This document shows, piece by piece, positions 1 through 11,622 of a DNA stretch of 38,423 bases. The position numbers and the translations under genes are program-made. Numbering within the stretch: position 1 is the first letter of the stretch; every line of letters begins with the position of its first letter. This stretch comes from Bacteriovoracaceae bacterium (GTDB lineage Bacteria; Bdellovibrionota; Bacteriovoracia; Bacteriovoracales; Bacteriovoracaceae). The DNA lies in the NCBI GenBank assembly GCA_023954635.1, contig JAGSHI010000021.1:1-38423 (forward strand), written 5' to 3'. A model generated the notes under the pieces. That model worked only from the letters and a program-made list of their open reading frames with translations, was not told where the DNA came from and did not search any database.

Positions 1-693
1 AAAGAAAAACTTGATACTACAGTACAGCCCCCGAAGCCTTTTAAGGTTGACTCCCAAATTGCCTTTGGTCTCGACTTTATTGAAGAATCAATTTCTTCTA
101 AAGATATCATTGAAGTTCAAAACAACATGAGCCTCACAGGTCTTTACTTGGATGCTGCTTTGAGGTTTCAAGAACATCCTACTGACAGATTACATGTCGG
201 CTTTCGCATGACTCGATTTTCATCTGAAAATGAATATGGATTAACCCCTCCAAGGGCGTTGCACTTACTTTATAAACTTGGTTTTAGCGCCGTTCCGATT
301 CATATCCATGGGGGGTTTGAGTATGAAACCCAACCTTTTGCTCAACTAGGAAACGCAGGGGAAGGGATTAGGGCCTGGGAGCAGAGTTTTCTTTGGTTTA
401 AAGGTGGCATTTCTGTAAATTTTAGAAGTATCTTTAATATGAAAAGTACTTTTGGAGGTTATTTATTTAAACCATATATTGCGACTTCTAACTTTGCGAC
501 AGGTGACGGGGTCGAGAGGGGGACTGGAACAGTCGCCTTAACAGGTTCTAAATTTGAGTTCTTTTTCTTACAGCAGATTTGGCAAAGTTATCATTTAAAA
601 TTCACGTATTATCAGTCAGATATAACTGCAATTGGTTCAAGTAACCTCATTAATAACCAATCAACGACCTTGGTTTCTCTAATATACAAATAA
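1..693 (+). CDS. Probable outer-membrane beta-barrel protein, 5' end missing
   Basis: The reading frame is open from the first base of the window and ends at TAA 691-693, so the N-terminus lies upstream; an internal ATG at 127 is not a likely start because the frame continues in front of it with similar protein character. About 230 residues are visible. They show short alternating polar/hydrophobic stretches rich in Gly, Phe and Tyr, and the chain ends in a hydrophobic strand with a terminal Tyr-Lys, which resembles an outer-membrane barrel. There are no transmembrane helices and no recognisable enzyme motif. It is followed by a 97-base gap with a small hairpin before the next gene. No specific family recognised; the barrel call is an inference from residue pattern. 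Confidence 0.6.
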   Translation, partial: KEKLDTTVQPPKPFKVDSQIAFGLDFIEESISSKDIIEVQNNMSLTGLYLDAALRFQEHPTDRLHVGFRMTRFSSENEYGLTPPRALHLLYKLGFSAVPIHIHGGFEYETQPFAQLGNAGEGIRAWEQSFLWFKGGISVNFRSIFNMKSTFGGYLFKPYIATSNFATGDGVERGTGTVALTGSKFEFFFLQQIWQSYHLKFTYYQSDITAIGSSNLINNQSTTLVSLIYK

Positions 694-763: not shown

Positions 764-802
764 TTCATTTGTGATGTTTTATATATAGAGATGGAATTTT
801 TC

Positions 803-1507
803 ATGAGAAAGAAAAAAAACGAAGAAGTTGAAAAACAAGACACAAAATCGAGACTCTTATCGAAATTTGAATCGATGGAAGAGGAGTCAAGTCGAACTCC
901 AGTCATTGCCGCTCAAACTCAAACAGACACTGCCACAATGTTAAGTTCAGAAACAGGGACTAGGTATTTAGAGCAGAAGATGACAGAAGAAATTGTGCTT
1001 TGGAAAAAAGTTTATACAAAGCATATCGCCGAAGAGAAGAACTTCTCAAGATATACTCAGAGGATCGAGGGACTATTTGTCCAAATTAATCCTGATGCTA
1101 GTTTAAATATAGAGTTTACCAATCCTCAATCAATACATACTTATGAAGAGATTGAAGAAAAAATTCTAAACAGCTTTAGAAAAGATTTATTTCCTTTTCT
1201 TGTCGCAGGATCTTACGACACACACCTTGAGATTGAATCAAATGAAAATGGAACCGACGTTTATATATCTAGATTAGTTGAAGACAACCTTATGGAAGGT
1301 CGAGATGAACTGATTCAAACGTTACAAGATGTTAAGGGTCTGCGAGGATCATCTTATGGAATCTATGAGAAATTCACAGAGACAAGAGATGGAAGAGATC
1401 TAGTCTTAATAGGCGTAAAAATTAAGGATACTAATAAAGTTAAAACTAAAACTAAAAATAATAGAAAAGTAGGAATTAGAACTCCTAGAAAAGAAATTAC
1501 TGTTTGA
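803..1507 (+). CDS. Unknown cytoplasmic protein, first gene of the FliF/FliG-like cluster
   Basis: About 234 residues, very charged, with no signal peptide or membrane segment. The first ~65 residues are Lys/Glu/Thr-rich and probably disordered; residues ~65-210 look like a mixed alpha/beta domain; the tail is basic (KVKTKTK and similar). I chose ATG 803 over ATG 791 because 803 has a GGA 7 bases upstream while 791 has an AGAG directly abutting it with no spacer. Twenty-two bases separate it from the next gene, so co-transcription with the membrane protein is likely. No family recognised. It contains a short T-A-T-M-L motif that recurs in the acidic protein at 19805-22129. Context suggests a cytoplasmic partner of the neighbouring envelope proteins. 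Confidence 0.7.
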   Translation: MRKKKNEEVEKQDTKSRLLSKFESMEEESSRTPVIAAQTQTDTATMLSSETGTRYLEQKMTEEIVLWKKVYTKHIAEEKNFSRYTQRIEGLFVQINPDASLNIEFTNPQSIHTYEEIEEKILNSFRKDLFPFLVAGSYDTHLEIESNENGTDVYISRLVEDNLMEGRDELIQTLQDVKGLRGSSYGIYEKFTETRDGRDLVLIGVKIKDTNKVKTKTKNNRKVGIRTPRKEITV

Positions 1508-1529: not shown

Positions 1530-3341
1530 ATGTTTACGACAAACGAAATGAAAACAAAACTATCGAACTTTGCCATCTATGCATTAATCGGAGTGGTCGT
1601 CACCTATATGGGAAGCCGAGTACTGGATTACTTTAAAATGTCTGATGGGATTGAAGTCTCTCAAAATAAAATTGAGGCCCTCGGGAAACTCTCTGGAGAT
1701 CTTTCGACAATCAAATCTAAAAAAGAGCTTATTGGAAAGATTGGTCAACAAGACTTCTCATTAGTAGATAAAAAGCTTTTTAAAGCTGCAGGAATAAAGA
1801 ACATTGATCATATCTCGAAAGTTCTAGAGCTTGAGGCAAGAAAGAGAAGACCAAAGGCAGCTGGTAAAAAGATCAACTCAACTATTACTTCAATTAAGAC
1901 ATTGAATAACAATATTGCTTTTGAACTACGACAGAAAAGATATTCTAGTAGAACAGAGTTTAATCAGATTAGAAAAAGATTTGAAAAGACTATGTGGAAA
2001 AGTTCCAAGGTTCTAGATAAGTGGAGAACTTCTCTTGCTACTTACAAAAAGTTCACAGACAGAATTAAAAATACAAAGATGGCCGCTGATGTAAAGAACA
2101 AGCTACTATTTAGACTAGGTCGAGTGATGGATAAGCATCAAGAGTCTATTAAGTATTTAAGTTTTGAATCAAATGCGAAAACTGCAGAGATTGCAGTAAT
2201 GAGAAGAATAGAAGAATTAAAAGACAATGTTCCTGAGTATATTATTACAGCGAATGCAGAAAAAAATAATGCTTATAGAAGTTTTTATAGAACTATTCTT
2301 GGGGACTTCGTAAAATTATCATTAGCTGGTATCGCACTTCTGGCGTTAGTCATTATCAGATTTAAGAAAACTAGTGAATCAGCAATCAAAGGTCTGAAAA
2401 CTAAAAATAAAAGAAGAAGAAGAGAAGTTCAAGCGGCCAAGGATCAACTTGGACTACTTGAAAGACAATCTTTTATTCCTACTGCAATTCTGGATGGAAA
2501 CGAAGATATTCAATGGGCGAGTGATAGCTTTAGAGAAACTCTAGGTTTTAATAAGCAAGGAGCTTTGCCTAATTGGAGAAGAATATTTGAAAGAGATGTT
2601 TTTGATCACTCTGATGCTACTGGAGTCAAAGGTGCAGTTAAGTTACGTAATGATCTTCAAGCTGACTACATTATGAGATCAAAAATGGAAAGAATCGATG
2701 GAGCTGATAGGAGAATTATCCAGATTTGGCCTGTTGAAGAATATTATAAAGAACTAGCTGGAGAGAATCCACTTATTACAATTCCTAGAGAATCAATCAA
2801 GGAGAGTTATACTGAGATTGGTAATCTTACAGAAGATCTTCTCGCAAAAATGGGAGTCTTCTTTCAAAGTATGAGAGTTAATGTTGACCTTGGAACTAGG
2901 TTACCAACTCTGACGACTGCAAACGAAGAGGCCATGACTCTTGGACTTGCAAATGTCTTAAAAGGTCTTGTCTTTTATCTTTCTCATACAAAGCAGGGAA
3001 GTGGAGTCAATCTAACTTTCACTAAAGCAAACGGTCGAGTTAATTTTAAAATTGAAGCCACAGATGCCAGGATTGACCTTGCGGAAATCGACAAAGAACT
3101 AAACTTCAAGAACAAAAACTATCACTCTCTTGGTTACTACCTTTCAGAATGTGAAAGAGTTCTGGAGGCCTATGGAGCAAATGTAGGAATACGAAATTTC
3201 CTCGCTGCCGATAGAAGTACTTCTGTTGCAGTGATTGAAATTGGAATACAAGAAAAAATTGAAGTCAAAGCAGACAGAGAATATAGAAATATCAGATTTG
3301 ATAAGCAACTCTACGTAACTGATGTAAAAGGTATAAACTGA
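1530..3341 (+). CDS. Membrane protein with PAS-like and degenerate histidine-kinase ATPase-like domains
   Basis: A 603-residue protein with sensor-kinase layout: TM1 at ~12-30, a ~225-residue basic helical periplasmic region, TM2 at ~260-280, a basic coiled stretch, a PAS-like domain at ~309-390, then a region at ~454-575 resembling the HATPase_c fold. A G2-box-like segment (SLGYYLSECERVLEAYGA) is visible. There is no phospho-accepting His in the helical region before it. The N-box asparagines are replaced (VLKGLVFYLS where VLxNLxxNA is expected), and the DxGxG motif is absent. ATP binding and autophosphorylation are therefore doubtful; a scaffold or signal-receiving role is more likely. Shine-Dalgarno AGAGGATG precedes ATG 1530. 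It abuts the next gene with no gap (TGA 3339-3341, ATG 3342), so the two are translationally coupled. The fold assignment is by eye. Confidence 0.75.
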   Translation: MFTTNEMKTKLSNFAIYALIGVVVTYMGSRVLDYFKMSDGIEVSQNKIEALGKLSGDLSTIKSKKELIGKIGQQDFSLVDKKLFKAAGIKNIDHISKVLELEARKRRPKAAGKKINSTITSIKTLNNNIAFELRQKRYSSRTEFNQIRKRFEKTMWKSSKVLDKWRTSLATYKKFTDRIKNTKMAADVKNKLLFRLGRVMDKHQESIKYLSFESNAKTAEIAVMRRIEELKDNVPEYIITANAEKNNAYRSFYRTILGDFVKLSLAGIALLALVIIRFKKTSESAIKGLKTKNKRRRREVQAAKDQLGLLERQSFIPTAILDGNEDIQWASDSFRETLGFNKQGALPNWRRIFERDVFDHSDATGVKGAVKLRNDLQADYIMRSKMERIDGADRRIIQIWPVEEYYKELAGENPLITIPRESIKESYTEIGNLTEDLLAKMGVFFQSMRVNVDLGTRLPTLTTANEEAMTLGLANVLKGLVFYLSHTKQGSGVNLTFTKANGRVNFKIEATDARIDLAEIDKELNFKNKNYHSLGYYLSECERVLEAYGANVGIRNFLAADRSTSVAVIEIGIQEKIEVKADREYRNIRFDKQLYVTDVKGIN

Positions 3342-3971
3342 ATGAAGGCCAAGTCGGCTTTAATCGTTATTGTTTTCCTGCTTGCCCTAACCAAGGTTAG
3401 GGCCAATGACTTTCACCCAATTCTCAATACCAGTATGGGCATGGTCAATATCTCACTTACAGAAAATACCTCAACTCTAACAGCAACAGATGAGTCTGTT
3501 ACTGTTGAAGAAGATGCAGCCGCTGCGACTGCAGCCAGTGTCATTAGCTTTGAAGTTAATTATGAATTCAAAAATTATGCAGATAAAAGTTATTTTGCAA
3601 AAGCTGTTGTTCCTCTTATGACTGCCGATGGCTCAGGTGTCTTTATGGGAAGTATCGGAGCCAACTTCTATATTGGAAGTCTCTCCTCAATCTTTTCTTT
3701 CAAAGATAAAGGAACACAAATTTATATGATTCCAAAAACGAGGTATTACTGGGGAGCTTCCACCGGTGTGGGATATGTCGTCTATAATACTATTTCGGCC
3801 AAGAAATCTGATATCTTTTTTGATCTTGGCATCCATGGTGGAATGGTTTACAACTTTAGTCGGAAGTGGGGAATGCGTGGAGAACTTGGTGCCGGAAGAG
3901 GTACTGGTATCGCAACTTCTTCATTTGGAATCAAAATATTCCTTGGAACTTCCTATTACATAGGTCTTTAA
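3342..3971 (+). CDS. Exported outer-membrane barrel-like protein
   Basis: A 209-residue protein with a clear signal peptide (residues 1-21, cut after VRA). It is followed by a Thr/Glu/Ala-rich segment (~30-65), then alternating strands with Gly and aromatic residues up to a C-terminal SYYIGL, typical of small outer-membrane beta barrels. It starts on the base after the stop of the degenerate kinase gene and has no good Shine-Dalgarno of its own, so its translation probably depends on that gene. This ties it to the inner-membrane protein functionally. No named family recognised. A 122-base gap follows with no clear terminator. Confidence 0.65.
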   Translation: MKAKSALIVIVFLLALTKVRANDFHPILNTSMGMVNISLTENTSTLTATDESVTVEEDAAAATAASVISFEVNYEFKNYADKSYFAKAVVPLMTADGSGVFMGSIGANFYIGSLSSIFSFKDKGTQIYMIPKTRYYWGASTGVGYVVYNTISAKKSDIFFDLGIHGGMVYNFSRKWGMRGELGAGRGTGIATSSFGIKIFLGTSYYIGL

Positions 3972-4093: not shown

Positions 4094-4705
4094 ATGAAAG
4101 GACTATTTTTCACACTATTAGTAATTGGACTTTTTAACAATGTAGTTATGTCTGAAGAGATTGCGATAACAAGTAATCCTGAAGAGGTAGATATCTTTGT
4201 GAAAAATGCTCAAACAGGACAAGAGTTAAAGATTGGGAAAACGCCTTATAAAGGTGATGTCGATGCTCTTACGGCGAATGTTGCTAATGGTTCGGTTTTT
4301 ATGATTGAACTAAGAAAGGTAGGTTTCGAGTCCTATCGAATACTTTTCACAAAGGCCGGAAAAAGTGACATTGCTGTTAATGTGAATATGGAAGTAGCAA
4401 AAGATATGTCAATGACTCAAGACTTTGACCTTTTAACGGGAGACCTCTTTGACGTTCAAAGAATGGTTAGAACTAAAGATTACCAATCAGCATTAAAGAA
4501 ATTAGAAATGTTGGAAAAAAAGTTTCCTCATTTTAGCGTTGTATATGAAATGCGAGCATCTGTTTTTTATTTAATGAAAGAGTTTAAGAGATCTCTAACA
4601 TTTTATAGAAAAGCTTTTGCTACTAACCCTAAAAACAGAGATGCATACAGGATGAAGATGTATCTCGAAAAGAAGTTTAAAGTGGCTTCTAATGTACCTC
4701 GGTAA
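4094..4705 (+). CDS. Exported PEGA-domain and TPR protein
   Basis: 203 residues. A signal peptide covers ~1-20 (no lipobox Cys). Residues ~21-95 match the PEGA pattern: a beta-rich segment with SNPEEVDIFV, then a G-K-TPY turn, then strands of the 'GFESYRI' type. Residues ~120-190 form at least two TPR-like helical pairs (YQSALKKLEMLEKKFPHF; FKRSLTFYRKAFATNPKN). PEGA domains are commonly periplasmic or surface modules and TPRs bind proteins, so a periplasmic connector or assembly factor is plausible. Shine-Dalgarno AGGAG sits 7-8 bases before ATG 4094. The gene ends 14 bases before the FliF/FliG-like gene, which points to one transcript and a shared complex. Confidence 0.72.
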   Translation: MKGLFFTLLVIGLFNNVVMSEEIAITSNPEEVDIFVKNAQTGQELKIGKTPYKGDVDALTANVANGSVFMIELRKVGFESYRILFTKAGKSDIAVNVNMEVAKDMSMTQDFDLLTGDLFDVQRMVRTKDYQSALKKLEMLEKKFPHFSVVYEMRASVFYLMKEFKRSLTFYRKAFATNPKNRDAYRMKMYLEKKFKVASNVPR

Positions 4706-4719
4706 CCTAGGATAGGATT

Positions 4720-6972
4720 ATGTTGAAGGAAAAGATGAGAAAAATTCTTGTAACCTTTACTTTGTTGTTCATGATGGGACAACAGATTACACCTCTTTAT
4801 TCTCAAGATTTTGGAGCAACGTTTCTCCCATCGATTGAGTGGCAAAAGCAGGAGTTAGAAGAAAATATCAATAAAAAATTGATAAACTCACTAAAACCAA
4901 TCATTAAATCAAATGAATACTTAATTGATATTCAAATTGAAGCTAAAGTTCCTGAGAAACCAGAGTTCAATAAAACTGATGAAGAGGCAGCTCTTGATGC
5001 AGCTGTTGCAGAATCGGATGCTAAGAAGAAAAAAGAAGAAGAAGGGAAAACAGAAGAAGAAAAAGTTGCTGAAGCAAATAAAGCAGAAGAGGAAAAGAAA
5101 AAGAAAGAGAACAAGAATAAAGTTAGAATTTCAGATGTAGATCCAAAAGATATCCCAGAGGATGCAGTTCTTTTCTCTAAACTAGGGTTAGAGGCTCCTC
5201 TTATTGATGACTTTAATGATTTTCAACCAGATGGGAAAATCATTCTTTCAATGAAGCAAGAAGATCCTGAAAAAGATAACTTGATTGAGAAGCAAAAAGA
5301 GAAAATTGAGAAAGCTCAAGCCAAGTTGGATGAGTCAAAAACAAAAGAAGATAGTTTAAGAAAGAAGTTACAAGCTCTCAAAACAAAACCAAAGCCTTCA
5401 GCTGTTGAACAACTTTGGAAGTACAATGAAAGTGTTGATATCTTCAAGAACTTAAAGTCTGTAAAAGTAAAAGTTCAATTAAATGAAGAGTTGGCTCAAG
5501 ATACTAGAGACACGATCTCAACTGTACTTAATAGTATTAATTTCAATCTAGGAAAAGTTAAACCTCAGATTGCAATTGAATACGTTAATATGAAAGAGAA
5601 GTTTAAGAAAGATATCCTTCCAAGTAAGCTTAAGGACATCATTGATTATGCGAGCAAGTTCTCAGTTGCTCTTGGACTTCTACTATCAGCATTGTTAATG
5701 GGACTTGTCGCTTTCGTTATCTTTAGAATGTATAAGAAAATGAAAGAAAATGAGCAAGCTCAAGCAGCAGCAGGAGCTGGTGGTGCCGGAGCGGGTGGTG
5801 ACAGTGGTTCTGACGATGACGATGAAGACGAAGATGATATGGGTGGTGCCTTCTCCATGGGTGGAGAAGATATGGCCGGTGGTCTCAACGGAATCGAAAG
5901 GTTTAGAACTTTCTTAAGTAAAAATGAAGTTGATGCTTCTATGCTTATTAAGAAGTGGATTAAATCTGCAGAGAAAGAAGAACAAAATGCACTTCGAGCG
6001 GTGGTTCAACAATTAGATAATAGTGAACTCGTAAAAATATTTGATAAGTTAACTCCTGATGAAAGAGCAGAGTGGAAAAAATATCTCAATAAATCAGTAG
6101 ATGGAGATGGCTTGATAAGAGCGAATGTCTTTATCTCAACTCAAATTGTTGAAGAAATTATTGTTCCAGCAGCGATTACAGATCCTGAGACTCAAGACCT
6201 TCTCTTGAAGATTAAGCCAGAACAAGCTGCAAAGTTTGTTCAAGAGAACCCGGATCTTGGTAAAATTTTAATGAACGTTATGAATACAAAATTTGTTTCA
6301 AAGATTATTGATAATCTAGACAATAGTTATATTGATAATGTTATTGATTCATCAATTGAATTTGATAATTCTGAAATTGAATCAAATCTTGATAGCTTTA
6401 AGAGCAAACTTGGTGAGTATCAGGATGAGAAGAAAAGAATTCCATTCCTTGAAAGAGTGGCAGAGCTTATCCCAATTGCTTCACCTTCTAGAGAGACTTC
6501 TCTCTTCAAGGCCCTGGCAAAATCTGGAGATGAAGATGGAATGTATAATCTTGCGAGCCAATACTTTCCAGCGGTACTTGTACCAGAACTGCCAATTAAC
6601 TTCTTGAAGACAATACTTCAGAAGTATTCAATGGGACCAAAGATAGAGATGTTACTTTCTATCGATGAATCTCTAAAAGATCACTTCGTTGGAATTTTTG
6701 CTCCAGAAGGGTCTAAAGCAAATGATATGCTTCAACTTGAATTTGAAAAAGCTGAGAACGACATTTCAGTTCAAAGAAGAGTTCGAGAAAATGGAGAAGA
6801 TATCTGGAAAGAGTTTGTAGACTTCTCGAGAAAAGAAATCAAAAACGATAAAACTGTTGCTGGTGATATCGACTCTATGGTTTCTGAATGGGTAGGGAAG
6901 GTTTGCAAGGGGCAATCTCCTGAACAAGCGGCTCAATCACTTGAGGCCTCTGGAGAGAAAGTCGCAGCCTAA
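4720..6972 (+). CDS. Membrane protein with FliF-like periplasmic part and FliG-like cytoplasmic part
   Basis: 750 residues. A signal-like hydrophobic segment covers ~8-28. Residues ~40-70 (NINKKLINSLKPIIKS onward) resemble the FliF periplasmic segment that begins 'le.ri..lLepivG'. Next come a long Lys/Glu coiled stretch (~85-230), a second strand/helix element at ~243-290, a transmembrane helix at ~313-336, an Ala/Gly/Asp-rich linker (~345-388), and from ~389 to the end an all-helical region with FliG/MgtE-N-like repeats such as VVQQLDNSELVKIFDKLTPD and LLLKIKPEQAAKFVQENPDL. The canonical FliF N-terminal ring-building domains and an EHPQR-type FliG motif are not visible. ATG 4720 has AGGA 7 bases upstream; ATG 4735 is an alternative that also keeps the signal segment. 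It is the last gene of the cluster, followed by a strong terminator. No other flagellar ring gene is nearby. Homology is judged by pattern only. Confidence 0.7.
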   Translation: MLKEKMRKILVTFTLLFMMGQQITPLYSQDFGATFLPSIEWQKQELEENINKKLINSLKPIIKSNEYLIDIQIEAKVPEKPEFNKTDEEAALDAAVAESDAKKKKEEEGKTEEEKVAEANKAEEEKKKKENKNKVRISDVDPKDIPEDAVLFSKLGLEAPLIDDFNDFQPDGKIILSMKQEDPEKDNLIEKQKEKIEKAQAKLDESKTKEDSLRKKLQALKTKPKPSAVEQLWKYNESVDIFKNLKSVKVKVQLNEELAQDTRDTISTVLNSINFNLGKVKPQIAIEYVNMKEKFKKDILPSKLKDIIDYASKFSVALGLLLSALLMGLVAFVIFRMYKKMKENEQAQAAAGAGGAGAGGDSGSDDDDEDEDDMGGAFSMGGEDMAGGLNGIERFRTFLSKNEVDASMLIKKWIKSAEKEEQNALRAVVQQLDNSELVKIFDKLTPDERAEWKKYLNKSVDGDGLIRANVFISTQIVEEIIVPAAITDPETQDLLLKIKPEQAAKFVQENPDLGKILMNVMNTKFVSKIIDNLDNSYIDNVIDSSIEFDNSEIESNLDSFKSKLGEYQDEKKRIPFLERVAELIPIASPSRETSLFKALAKSGDEDGMYNLASQYFPAVLVPELPINFLKTILQKYSMGPKIEMLLSIDESLKDHFVGIFAPEGSKANDMLQLEFEKAENDISVQRRVRENGEDIWKEFVDFSRKEIKNDKTVAGDIDSMVSEWVGKVCKGQSPEQAAQSLEASGEKVAA

Positions 6973-7201: not shown

Positions 7202-7266
7202 TTAAGCATCTCGATTTCAAGGAAAGTTTAGAATTTCCGATAAGTTAAATCGGTGGATAGTAAATT

Positions 7267-9186
7267 ATGAAGAGAAAAACAACAGGTCATATTCTTCTTT
7301 CGTTTTGGGTGATTTTTTCACTCATTATGAGTTCTTGTATAGAGAATCAAGGTCTGTCTTCAAAGAGAAAAGGTTCACAAAAATCAGAGAGTGGTTCTGG
7401 TGGAACTGGAAGTGATTCTGGTGGTGGACAAGGTGCAGGTCCAGGAAATGGTTCTGTTGATTCTGGTGGATCAAATGAAAATGCAAATGGTGTCGCAGAG
7501 ATTAGACATATTGTAGATCCTCTCGACGGAACTTATAAAACAAAAGTTACGATTCCTAAAAATTTCACAGGTCTTCTTTATCTTTCTGGTCTGAATTTCA
7601 CATCTCTTTCGAATAAGATTGTTTATGCTAGATTTAGATTTGGACGAGAACTTGAACCCGTTATTATTCAAGGGACCATTGGACGTGCTCCAGGAATTAC
7701 ACCTCAAACAGACATCGAAGTACTCATCTTAGATTTCCAAGATAGACCATTCGAAAATATTAGATTGCTTTATGATTTATATGACTACAACGACTATAGA
7801 TCAACTTCTATAGTGAATGTTGAAGATAAAGAACCTACTAATGACCCGAGGAATGGTGGTCTTTATTGTCGAGGCCTTCGTCTAGAGCATGACCCAACTT
7901 TTAAAGGGTCGGCCTCGAATACTCAATGTGATGCCGCTGGTGAAAAATGTCTTTATGCTTATGCAAAAATTAAAGATAGCGGACTTGTAGAAAAAAGTAC
8001 TGGGATAACTTTAAATCCAACTGAACCTCAGCTTGATCTTGGGGGAACTGGATATAGTCAAGAGCCTCAGTCTAATGCCCTTAAGAAGTGTCTCCCTGAC
8101 AACAACAATATTGGAAACTTTAATAATGTTCTTAACACAAGTGTCTCAGGTGCCCTTGGTTGGAATATTACAGAAGTTTTTAGTGGGAACTATGTTTATA
8201 AGGGACCTTATCGCTCAATTGGAACAAGTCAGTGGGAGATTAAGGGAACTGCAGTCATTTCTCCTGTCGACTCTTCAAATGAGGGAATGGGAATCTTCCA
8301 GAATAGTTATAATGGAAATATCGCAAGCTGTTCTCCTTTGGAGACATGTGCCGATGGTGGATTTAAATCCTTTATGTTTCCAAGAGCCGGAAAAATCCCA
8401 CTTCGAAACTCGGTTGAATATTTTGGAAATGAGACAATGCCTTTTGACTCTAGAACGATCCATACACTTCTCACTAGTGGCGACTCTCAGTACATGGATG
8501 GATGTAATATGAGAGTTGGAAACTTTGATGAGTATTCAAATGAGAATATAGCTTCATGTAATGTCTCAGCATCAATCGACCTTATAACAATTGATCAAAA
8601 CACAAATCAGGAATCAGTATTAAGCTCTTCTAGAGAAGTTAAGTTACAACTCATTAGATCTAGCAATACCGACTATCAAGGTCGCGAGGTTCTTTATAGT
8701 TCTATGAAGTCTTGTTCGACTTCAAACTCATGTGGGGCATCTGAGTGTTGCTTTAACAGTCGATGTTGGTCAAAGGAATTAGTTTCTCAATGTGTTGAAG
8801 ATGCAACAGTCATTGGAAATAGAGGAGTAGGACAGCTTTGTAACTCCGACTTCGAATGTTCCTCATTATGTTGCAATCAATCTACAGGAACATGTTCAGT
8901 TCATTTAAATACAGAAGAGCAAAAAGTTCTTTGTTCTAAGTCCCCAGGGCAGAGTTGTGTGATGAAAGAGTATTGTAGAGAAGAAAACCTTACTCAATGC
9001 TTTGTTGTCAAAACAGGGGTTGATGGACAAGGGCAACAACTATGTGCGTTAAGATGTTATAACGTCCCAACCTTTGGAAGCTGTATCAATGGAGTTTGTA
9101 TTCCTCCAGATAACCCTGTGGTTCCGGACTTTGACTCTGATAATCCCGATTGTAGTGGAGCGGTTGATCCACCAACAACACTTTAG
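7267..9186 (+). CDS. Large Cys-rich surface or periplasmic lipoprotein, function unknown
   Basis: 639 residues. A lipoprotein signal ends at Cys24 (IMSSC), so the protein should be lipid-anchored. Residues ~32-75 are a Gly/Ser/Asn linker. Residues ~80-470 are a beta-rich domain with no family I recognise, with scattered cysteines. Residues ~480-632 are Cys-dense and contain two related units of the form C-x5-C-x3/4-C-C-x4/6-C (SCSTSNSCGASECC... and LCNSDFECSSLCC...), then further cysteines, which suggests a disulfide-knotted module as in small secreted eukaryote-like repeats. GGTGGA precedes the ATG by 9 bases. It stands alone between a terminator and a palindrome. An exposed adhesin or binding role is possible but unproven. 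Confidence 0.7.
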   Translation: MKRKTTGHILLSFWVIFSLIMSSCIENQGLSSKRKGSQKSESGSGGTGSDSGGGQGAGPGNGSVDSGGSNENANGVAEIRHIVDPLDGTYKTKVTIPKNFTGLLYLSGLNFTSLSNKIVYARFRFGRELEPVIIQGTIGRAPGITPQTDIEVLILDFQDRPFENIRLLYDLYDYNDYRSTSIVNVEDKEPTNDPRNGGLYCRGLRLEHDPTFKGSASNTQCDAAGEKCLYAYAKIKDSGLVEKSTGITLNPTEPQLDLGGTGYSQEPQSNALKKCLPDNNNIGNFNNVLNTSVSGALGWNITEVFSGNYVYKGPYRSIGTSQWEIKGTAVISPVDSSNEGMGIFQNSYNGNIASCSPLETCADGGFKSFMFPRAGKIPLRNSVEYFGNETMPFDSRTIHTLLTSGDSQYMDGCNMRVGNFDEYSNENIASCNVSASIDLITIDQNTNQESVLSSSREVKLQLIRSSNTDYQGREVLYSSMKSCSTSNSCGASECCFNSRCWSKELVSQCVEDATVIGNRGVGQLCNSDFECSSLCCNQSTGTCSVHLNTEEQKVLCSKSPGQSCVMKEYCREENLTQCFVVKTGVDGQGQQLCALRCYNVPTFGSCINGVCIPPDNPVVPDFDSDNPDCSGAVDPPTTL

Positions 9187-11139: not shown

Positions 11140-11622
11140 TTACTGAATAACAAAACGAGAGAAATAAAGCTCTTTAACGGCCTTCTTTCTAATAATCTTA
11201 TTAACTCTTTTTCTAACTCTAGTTTCAAACAAAATTTTGCCCATACTAGAGTTGAGTTCAGAGGGCTCCATACTTCCCGCAATATCGATGACGGCATCAT
11301 TAATAAGTGCCTTATTAGTTTCAAGGTCATCGTTAAATTTTGGATGGAAAGGAACAAAGTGGATGACTACATCTAAATAGCGAAGTTTTGATCTTCTACT
11401 TTTTAAATTGATGATAAGTTTGTCGAGTTTATACCCCTCTGGAAAAACCGCCTTTCTAGACTCTTCTATCATTTTCACTCTTTCTAAAATGTCTGAAGGG
11501 AGAGGCTTTTTATAAATCATTTGTGTATAAATAATAACTCCAAGAGCACCAAGTGTTGCTAGGAGTGAGAGACCAACAAGGGCCAGATCAATTTGTTTTT
11601 TTCCGGTTAGAGAAGTACTCAT
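11140..11622 (-). CDS. FliL-like membrane protein
   Basis: 160 residues. One N-terminal membrane helix (~11-33), then a periplasmic domain that follows the FliL pattern: RYLDVVIHFV (strand), a helix with 'NKALINDAVIDIAGSM', and the typical ending in which a basic helix (RVNKIIRKKAVKEL) leads to YFSRFVIQ, very close to the usual FliL C-terminal 'V.dVyFtdFviQ'. FliL proteins surround the stator units and support torque in the flagellar motor. No flagellar operon surrounds it here: its upstream neighbour on the minus strand is alanine dehydrogenase. No Shine-Dalgarno is visible in front of ATG 11622, and a good -10 lies just upstream, so a leaderless message is possible. It could serve the FliF/FliG-like system nearby or a normal flagellar motor elsewhere. 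Confidence 0.82.
   Translation of the reverse strand: MSTSLTGKKQIDLALVGLSLLATLGALGVIIYTQMIYKKPLPSDILERVKMIEESRKAVFPEGYKLDKLIINLKSRRSKLRYLDVVIHFVPFHPKFNDDLETNKALINDAVIDIAGSMEPSELNSSMGKILFETRVRKRVNKIIRKKAVKELYFSRFVIQ

Follow-up and report, generated by a model that had tools for sequence, protein, structure and literature searches.

In flagella, the C-terminal tail of FliF and the N-terminus of FliG co-fold as one split domain, according to Lynch (2017), a title cited in PMC11870540. Engineered FliF-FliG fusions in Salmonella (PMC6079021) and Vibrio (PMC11481574) demonstrate that the two proteins, joined in one chain, can form MS and C rings. For Bdellovibrio bacteriovorus, three MotAB pairs have been described as serving one flagellum (Morehouse et al., 2011, as cited in PMC12827227 and discussed in PMC11323537). 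A 2026 review (PMC13104615) regards the motor behind Bdellovibrio gliding as unidentified and as a major open challenge; AglR-type genes affect predation on biofilms (PMC2277423). We found no description, in the open-licence literature, of a natural FliF-FliG fusion accompanied by its own MotAB.

The stretch of DNA analysed here (the window) is a whole contig of 38,423 nucleotides, C97 of the Bacteriovoracaceae genome G000. On its forward strand, at 4720..6972, lies an intact open reading frame, ATG to stop, for a protein of 750 residues that we call FFG (FliF-FliG fusion protein). The reading frame itself, an AF2 model, a fold search of the PDB and hhalign comparisons with both FliG and FliF together show with high confidence that FFG is the C-terminal half of FliF fused to full-length FliG. 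We further propose, with a probability of a little over three in four, that FFG serves as the rotor in a non-flagellar rotary motor of the cell envelope, one that stands alone and is powered by MotAB.

The C-terminal half of FliF fused to full-length FliG

The initial annotation had described a single chain made up of a signal segment, a FliF-like element, a Lys/Glu-rich coil, one transmembrane helix and helical repeats, and all of these are present in the frame. The signal segment (residues 1-28, 4720..4803; this and the following features are on the forward strand) takes the place of TM1-RBM1-RBM2 of FliF, none of which was found in FFG by AF2 or hhalign; this segment is all that precedes RBM3, where the FliF alignment begins, in keeping with the proposed absence of the N-terminal ring domains. 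The first, alpha-beta half of RBM3 (residues 36-76, 4825..4947), placed by profile and structure alignment, is modelled as helix-strand at 39-58 and 67-75. It is separated from the second, beta-alpha-beta half (residues 240-292, 5437..5595; strand-helix-strand at 245-255, 260-272 and 283-289 in the AF2 model) by an insert at the position of the FliF beta-collar (residues 83-225, 4966..5394), which is modelled with low confidence and consists to 38% of Lys and Glu. The one strong transmembrane segment, equivalent to FliF TM2 (residues 315-337, 5662..5730), has its hydropathy peak at residue 316 within an AF2 helix spanning 315-351, and is followed by a Gly/Asp linker. Beyond it the cytoplasmic part (388-740) is all-helical in the model. 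This part opens with a stretch aligned to the FliF C-terminus (residues 390-416, 5887..5967), in which the FliG-binding-like motif 'ERF...P..A..LIKKWI' includes a tryptophan, W413, kept in 47 of 55 homologues, and continues with the FliG N-M-C region (residues 418-723, 5971..6888) placed by hhalign, Foldseek and structure alignment. A FliF tail and FliG_N standing consecutively in one chain is the look to be expected of a natural fusion.

Because the single sequence stays below Pfam cut-offs, the likeness to FliF and FliG emerged only with profiles and structure. Taken alone, the window protein yields no Pfam FliF or FliG match over cut-off, nothing over cut-off in NCBIfam and only noise in a phmmer search of PDB sequences; its one Pfam signal is MgtE_N at 15.9 bits, under the cut-off of 25.9. 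A profile of 55 FFG homologues, built with the long forms of the L111 type set aside, matches in hhalign a FliG profile from the same phylum over 186 columns (probability 96.6, P 5.1e-10) and FliF over 286 columns that begin in RBM3, take in TM2 and reach the last FliF residues (probability 94, P 1.2e-7). Eight unrelated neighbour families used as controls all remained below 3% probability. A smaller profile of 21 homologues gave values that are only suggestive (P 3.5e-4 for FliG, 1.5e-3 for FliF).

The structural comparisons agree with these profiles. When the AF2 model of FFG was searched against the PDB with Foldseek, the first 12 matches were all FliG (8umx, E 7.1e-5). Residues 418-723 align with full-length FliG (residues 3-328; 8wiw, Z 10.6), with the N, M and C domains in FliG order in both the model and hhalign; the whole-chain rmsd of this alignment is large and the model's pTM low (0.32, mean pLDDT 73), both of which are expected from flexible domains. 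Residues 34-292 match the RBM3/collar region of FliF (6sd1, FliF 231-438; Z 9.6, rmsd 3.5, 98 aligned), and the two RBM3 halves follow in the same order as in FliF. OsmC-like folds rank just after the FliF RBM3 rows (Z about 8 vs about 9.5), so that the assignment to FliF leans also on the sequence profile and on the order of the domains. Both halves of the annotated chimera are thus borne out. As for its 'FliG/MgtE-like' repeats, the FliG part of the description stands and the MgtE likeness proves secondary. A protein of the MgtE type was considered and ruled out, with MgtE_N below its cut-off and MgtE far under FliG in Foldseek.

In the helix equivalent to the torque helix of FliG (residues 664-681, 6709..6762), K666 corresponds to FliG R281 and E674 to FliG D289. 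Across the alignment of 55 homologues the former position is K/R in 47 and the latter E/D in all 55; the equivalents of K264 and R297 are not conserved. The FliM-binding EHPQ motif is missing from FFG, the residues aligned to it by hhalign being ENPD.

Losses such as those of RBM1/RBM2 and of EHPQ might be taken to mark a functionless, degenerate flagellar remnant or an accident of gene fusion. We regard this as very improbable in view of the intact frames, the conserved module, the paralogous FFG copies within genomes, the co-evolution with MotA described below, and the distribution of the family: FFG profile matches occur in 103 of 369 genomes sampled across the phylum; these span many families, and several have at least two copies. 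That FFG is a real gene follows from this spread together with orthologues that keep intact frames through genus and family, from 86% down to about 25% identity; a protein search recovered homologues in 18 of 59 relatives. Those aligned have in common an exported N-terminus, a split alpha-beta/beta-alpha-beta domain, one transmembrane helix, the motif 'ERF..F....P..A..LIKKWI' and, towards the C-terminus, a long helical region.

Some relatives pass the thresholds that the window protein does not. The related FFG proteins at loci L111 (799 aa), L112, L113 and L114 score above the Pfam cut-offs of FliG_C (35-57 bits) as well as FliG_M (27-36 bits), and that at L121, which also passes these two, exceeds the FliG_N cut-off as well; all five adjoin MotA/MotB. 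In profile alignment the long forms of the L111 type match the window family with P 1.5e-18. The FFG homologue of a genome that we take to be B. bacteriovorus HD100 is over the cut-offs for FliG_N, FliG_M and FliG_C. Modules of the 799-aa type carry a cyclic-nucleotide-binding (cNMP) protein between FFG and MotA (L111 9053-9544, L202 8764-9279), a possible control point linking the motor to nucleotide signalling. Most Bacteriovoracaceae genomes also encode, far from FFG, two short proteins of about 141 aa with FliG_C only (L119 7760-8185, L120 7244-7669).

Module genes and the MotAB pair

Neighbour clustering recovers a recurring gene set around FFG, consisting of a PEGA-like/TPR-like protein, FFG, c2 (200 aa), MotA and MotB, joined in part of the Bacteriovoracaceae by c3, c7 and c8. 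A neighbourhood search, as the initial annotation had proposed for this family, turned up a conserved module with its own MotA/MotB. In the window the most constant neighbour of FFG is an exported protein, PEGA-like by eye and TPR-like (Pfam TPR below cut-off), at 4094..4705 (+). Before it lies c2 (209 aa, 3342..3971, +), an outer-membrane protein predicted to be a beta-barrel of the OmpA/OmpX kind from its AF2 model (pLDDT 81, 8-10 strands) and from Foldseek matches to OmpA, Ail, NspA and OmpX. Further upstream, all on the forward strand, are the 603-aa membrane protein c8 (1530..3341), for which no Pfam family was matched, the small protein c7 (791..1507) and the C-terminal part of c3 (1..693). 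On the 3' side of FFG, a Cys-rich lipoprotein (7267..9186, +) is conserved in the genus only, and its membership of the module is uncertain.

The stator genes of this genome are found across a contig boundary. The end of contig C89 overlaps the start of the window by exactly 119 bases; C89 ends in the first part of c3, whose gene start it holds, and it carries MotA (7989-8777, -) and MotB (7237-7986, -). The overlap places MotAB about 6 kb upstream of FFG in G000, as in L001 and L002.

Several lines of evidence tie this pair to FFG. The module neighbours carry Pfam MotA_ExbB (MotA) and MotB_plug plus OmpA (MotB), and the MotA is full-length at 260-270 aa. Counting only FFG genes with at least 6 kb of flank on each side (n=42), MotA lies within 9 kb of 33, as against 0 of 20 random regions; in three more, G012, G014 and G094, it is farther off, within about 17-18 kb. 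Tree distances of FFG and MotA correlate (r 0.67, 0 of 2000 permutations), a value to which shared species history contributes. A profile built on module MotA splits the MotA proteins in two, a module type at 200-380 bits and a flagellar type at about 130-177 bits. Genomes bearing FFG have the module type besides the flagellar type, and three that lack FFG (G004, G009 and G041) have the flagellar type or weaker matches only. In the MotA tree the module proteins are not fully resolved as one clade, and the flagellar MotA of this family stand apart. A dedicated MotAB partner pair for FFG is accordingly well supported by genomes, and it is this pair, overlooked in the initial annotation, that turns the repurposed 'ring or scaffold' suggested there into a probable motor.

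The residues of module MotA can also be read another way. R90-like residues are kept in most, the loop around R90 is shorter, and E98, which is important in flagellar stators, is not well conserved in the alignment. Poor conservation of E98, along with the module's outer-membrane barrel and exported PEGA/TPR-like protein, would suit an energised scaffold that senses or does not rotate, a ring of FliG-like repeats by which ion flow through MotAB is coupled, as in Tol or Ton, to transport at the outer membrane or to its remodelling. The charges of the torque helix are nonetheless conserved, MotB retains its OmpA peptidoglycan anchor, and a system of the Tol kind would have no need of FliG, all of which leaves such a scaffold quite improbable. 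Rotary function of FFG-MotAB is likely.

G000 holds two further modules. The first, diverged, is on contig C82 (L049 2497-7921) and comprises a PEGA-like protein, a 591-aa FFG, a 206-aa protein and MotA, with a 573-aa LysM protein at the expected position of MotB. The other, on contig C88 (L198 4025-8282), has a PEGA-like lipoprotein, MotA and MotB, then a 560-aa weak FFG homologue (E 4e-4) and a 182-aa protein, with a 1218-aa lipoprotein after them. Another type of MotAB gene set with a PEGA-like protein (L115 795-4912, L111 16109-18205) contains, at L115, a 497-aa protein with FliG_C (32 bits), which suggests that fused-rotor motors come in more than one class. Lipoproteins of very large size (1500-2600 aa), some with fn3/Ig/ASH-type domains, often lie beside the modules (L234 2-17668, L149 3-7523, L042 12069-19901). 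As a fixed part of the module such giant adhesin-like lipoproteins were rejected, their presence at 28 of 42 FFG loci against 8 of 20 random regions (p 0.058) being a trend only.

Relation to the flagellum and the proposed machine

The earlier statement that no flagellar ring or export gene is nearby holds, with the additions of MotA/MotB about 6 kb upstream and a FliL homologue. The flagellar genes of G000 are elsewhere, FliF and FliG on contig C67 and FlhA, FliM and FliN on C213. No FliM, FliN or export gene was found at FFG loci; each of 20 genomes examined has two FliMN_C matches, or three in the case of G025, none of them at an FFG locus. The FliL family protein (50.5 bits, 11140-11622, -) lies about 4 kb downstream of FFG, and a FliL homologue is also found downstream of FFG in L002 (about 4 kb) and L001 (9 kb). 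The one in the window could serve the FFG motor or the flagellum.

FlhA is present in 319 of the 369 sampled genomes and most FFG genomes are flagellated, so the argument for independence rests on G109. This draft genome, 94% complete, has two FFG-MotAB modules, and no FlhA, FliF, FliM/N or flagellar-type MotA was found in it. FlhA and FliF were likewise not found in its congeners G034, G107 and G108. In G034 (99% complete), module MotAB stands beside the start of a PEGA-like gene and the contig ends where FFG would follow; we did not count it as an FFG genome. G081, considered as a second flagellum-less case, was dropped, as it has FliF and is 88% complete. Independence of the FFG module from flagellar genes is, on these genomes, well supported.

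The same data bear on the view that FFG and its MotAB are flagellar accessories, forming around the sheathed polar flagellum an extra ring, or a scaffold that recruits stators, through which additional stator types could act on the one motor. Nearly all FFG genomes are also flagellated, three MotAB pairs on one flagellum are reported for B. bacteriovorus (Morehouse et al., 2011, as above), and a FliL homologue lies within the window. What makes this view unlikely is that G109 has its two modules without those flagellar components. FFG moreover has its own RBM3 and FliG, which argues for a separate ring rather than an adaptor, and in two-hybrid assays the FliL protein Bd1076 bound MotB3, not MotB2 (PMC11323537).

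In the free-standing motor that we favour, we infer ring formation, rotation and output as follows. Through their periplasmic RBM3 domains, many FFG copies would assemble in the inner membrane as a ring resembling the S-ring. Each chain, crossing the membrane once, has its own FliG on the cytoplasmic side; the joint between FliF tail and FliG_N, split in the flagellum, is here covalent. Stator units of MotA5MotB2 composition, dedicated to this rotor and held to the peptidoglycan by the OmpA-like domain of MotB, would conduct ions and drive the FliG ring round by way of its charged torque helix. In a machine that has neither rod, hook nor export gate, and no FliM/FliN, the torque would go to periplasmic and outer-membrane partners, the PEGA/TPR protein and c2, and from these perhaps onward to surface lipoproteins. 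Our leading guess for the output is surface (gliding-type) movement or the motion of surface adhesins.

In the genome that we take to be HD100, the FFG gene is at 2913420-2915153 (-), and a MotAB pair lies beside it at 2918347-2920190. By its gene numbering this is presumably motAB2 (Bd3020/Bd3021). A pair treated in print as a flagellar stator thus seems to adjoin FFG, and because of this adjacency our proposal, if true, would alter the interpretation of experiments on stator genes in B. bacteriovorus, one of the three 'flagellar' pairs being concerned. The broader suggestion, which we offer tentatively and would not yet expect to prevail, is that FFG-MotAB represents a rotary machine of a new class, a motor with a fused rotor that diverged from the flagellum and has its own transmission at the outer membrane. 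It would then be the motor for gliding or surface movement that has been missing in Bdellovibrionota, B. bacteriovorus among them, in which its stator has been assigned to the flagellum. The module supplies named, deletable candidate genes for the question of the Bdellovibrio gliding motor. If a rotor with MotAB does work free of export, rod, hook, filament and FliM/FliN, the core of the flagellar motor is capable of existing as an independent machine, which bears on the evolution of flagella, injectisomes and stators and on the smallest set of parts able to turn.

Comparison with known systems

The Agl-Glt gliding motor of Myxococcus and Bdellovibrio (AglRQS) likewise has ion-driven, stator-like units acting on envelope and surface partners with no flagellum. 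We know of no FliF/FliG rotor in that system. AglRS fall in a generic, not a flagellar, stator clade (PMC12505986).

With flagellar FliF (Pfam YscJ_FliF_C, PF08345) FFG shares an RBM3 interrupted by an insert at the corresponding position, TM2 and a FliG-binding C-tail, in the same order; unlike FliF, it is without RBM1, RBM2 and TM1, has a Lys/Glu-rich coil for the beta-collar and carries FliG behind the tail. With FliG (PF14842, PF14841, PF01706) it shares the N-M-C armadillo-like helices and the charges at the R281 and D289 equivalents, and differs in being tethered to the membrane by fusion, in having ENPD for EHPQ and in having no FliM/FliN partner gene. The module pair resembles flagellar MotA/MotB in its full-length MotA of 260-270 aa and its MotB with plug and OmpA domains, whereas its MotA is a separate type linked to FFG, with the E98 region altered. 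Finally, the Salmonella and Vibrio fusions are laboratory constructs made with whole FliF, whereas FFG is a natural, truncated and, on our reading, non-flagellar fusion.
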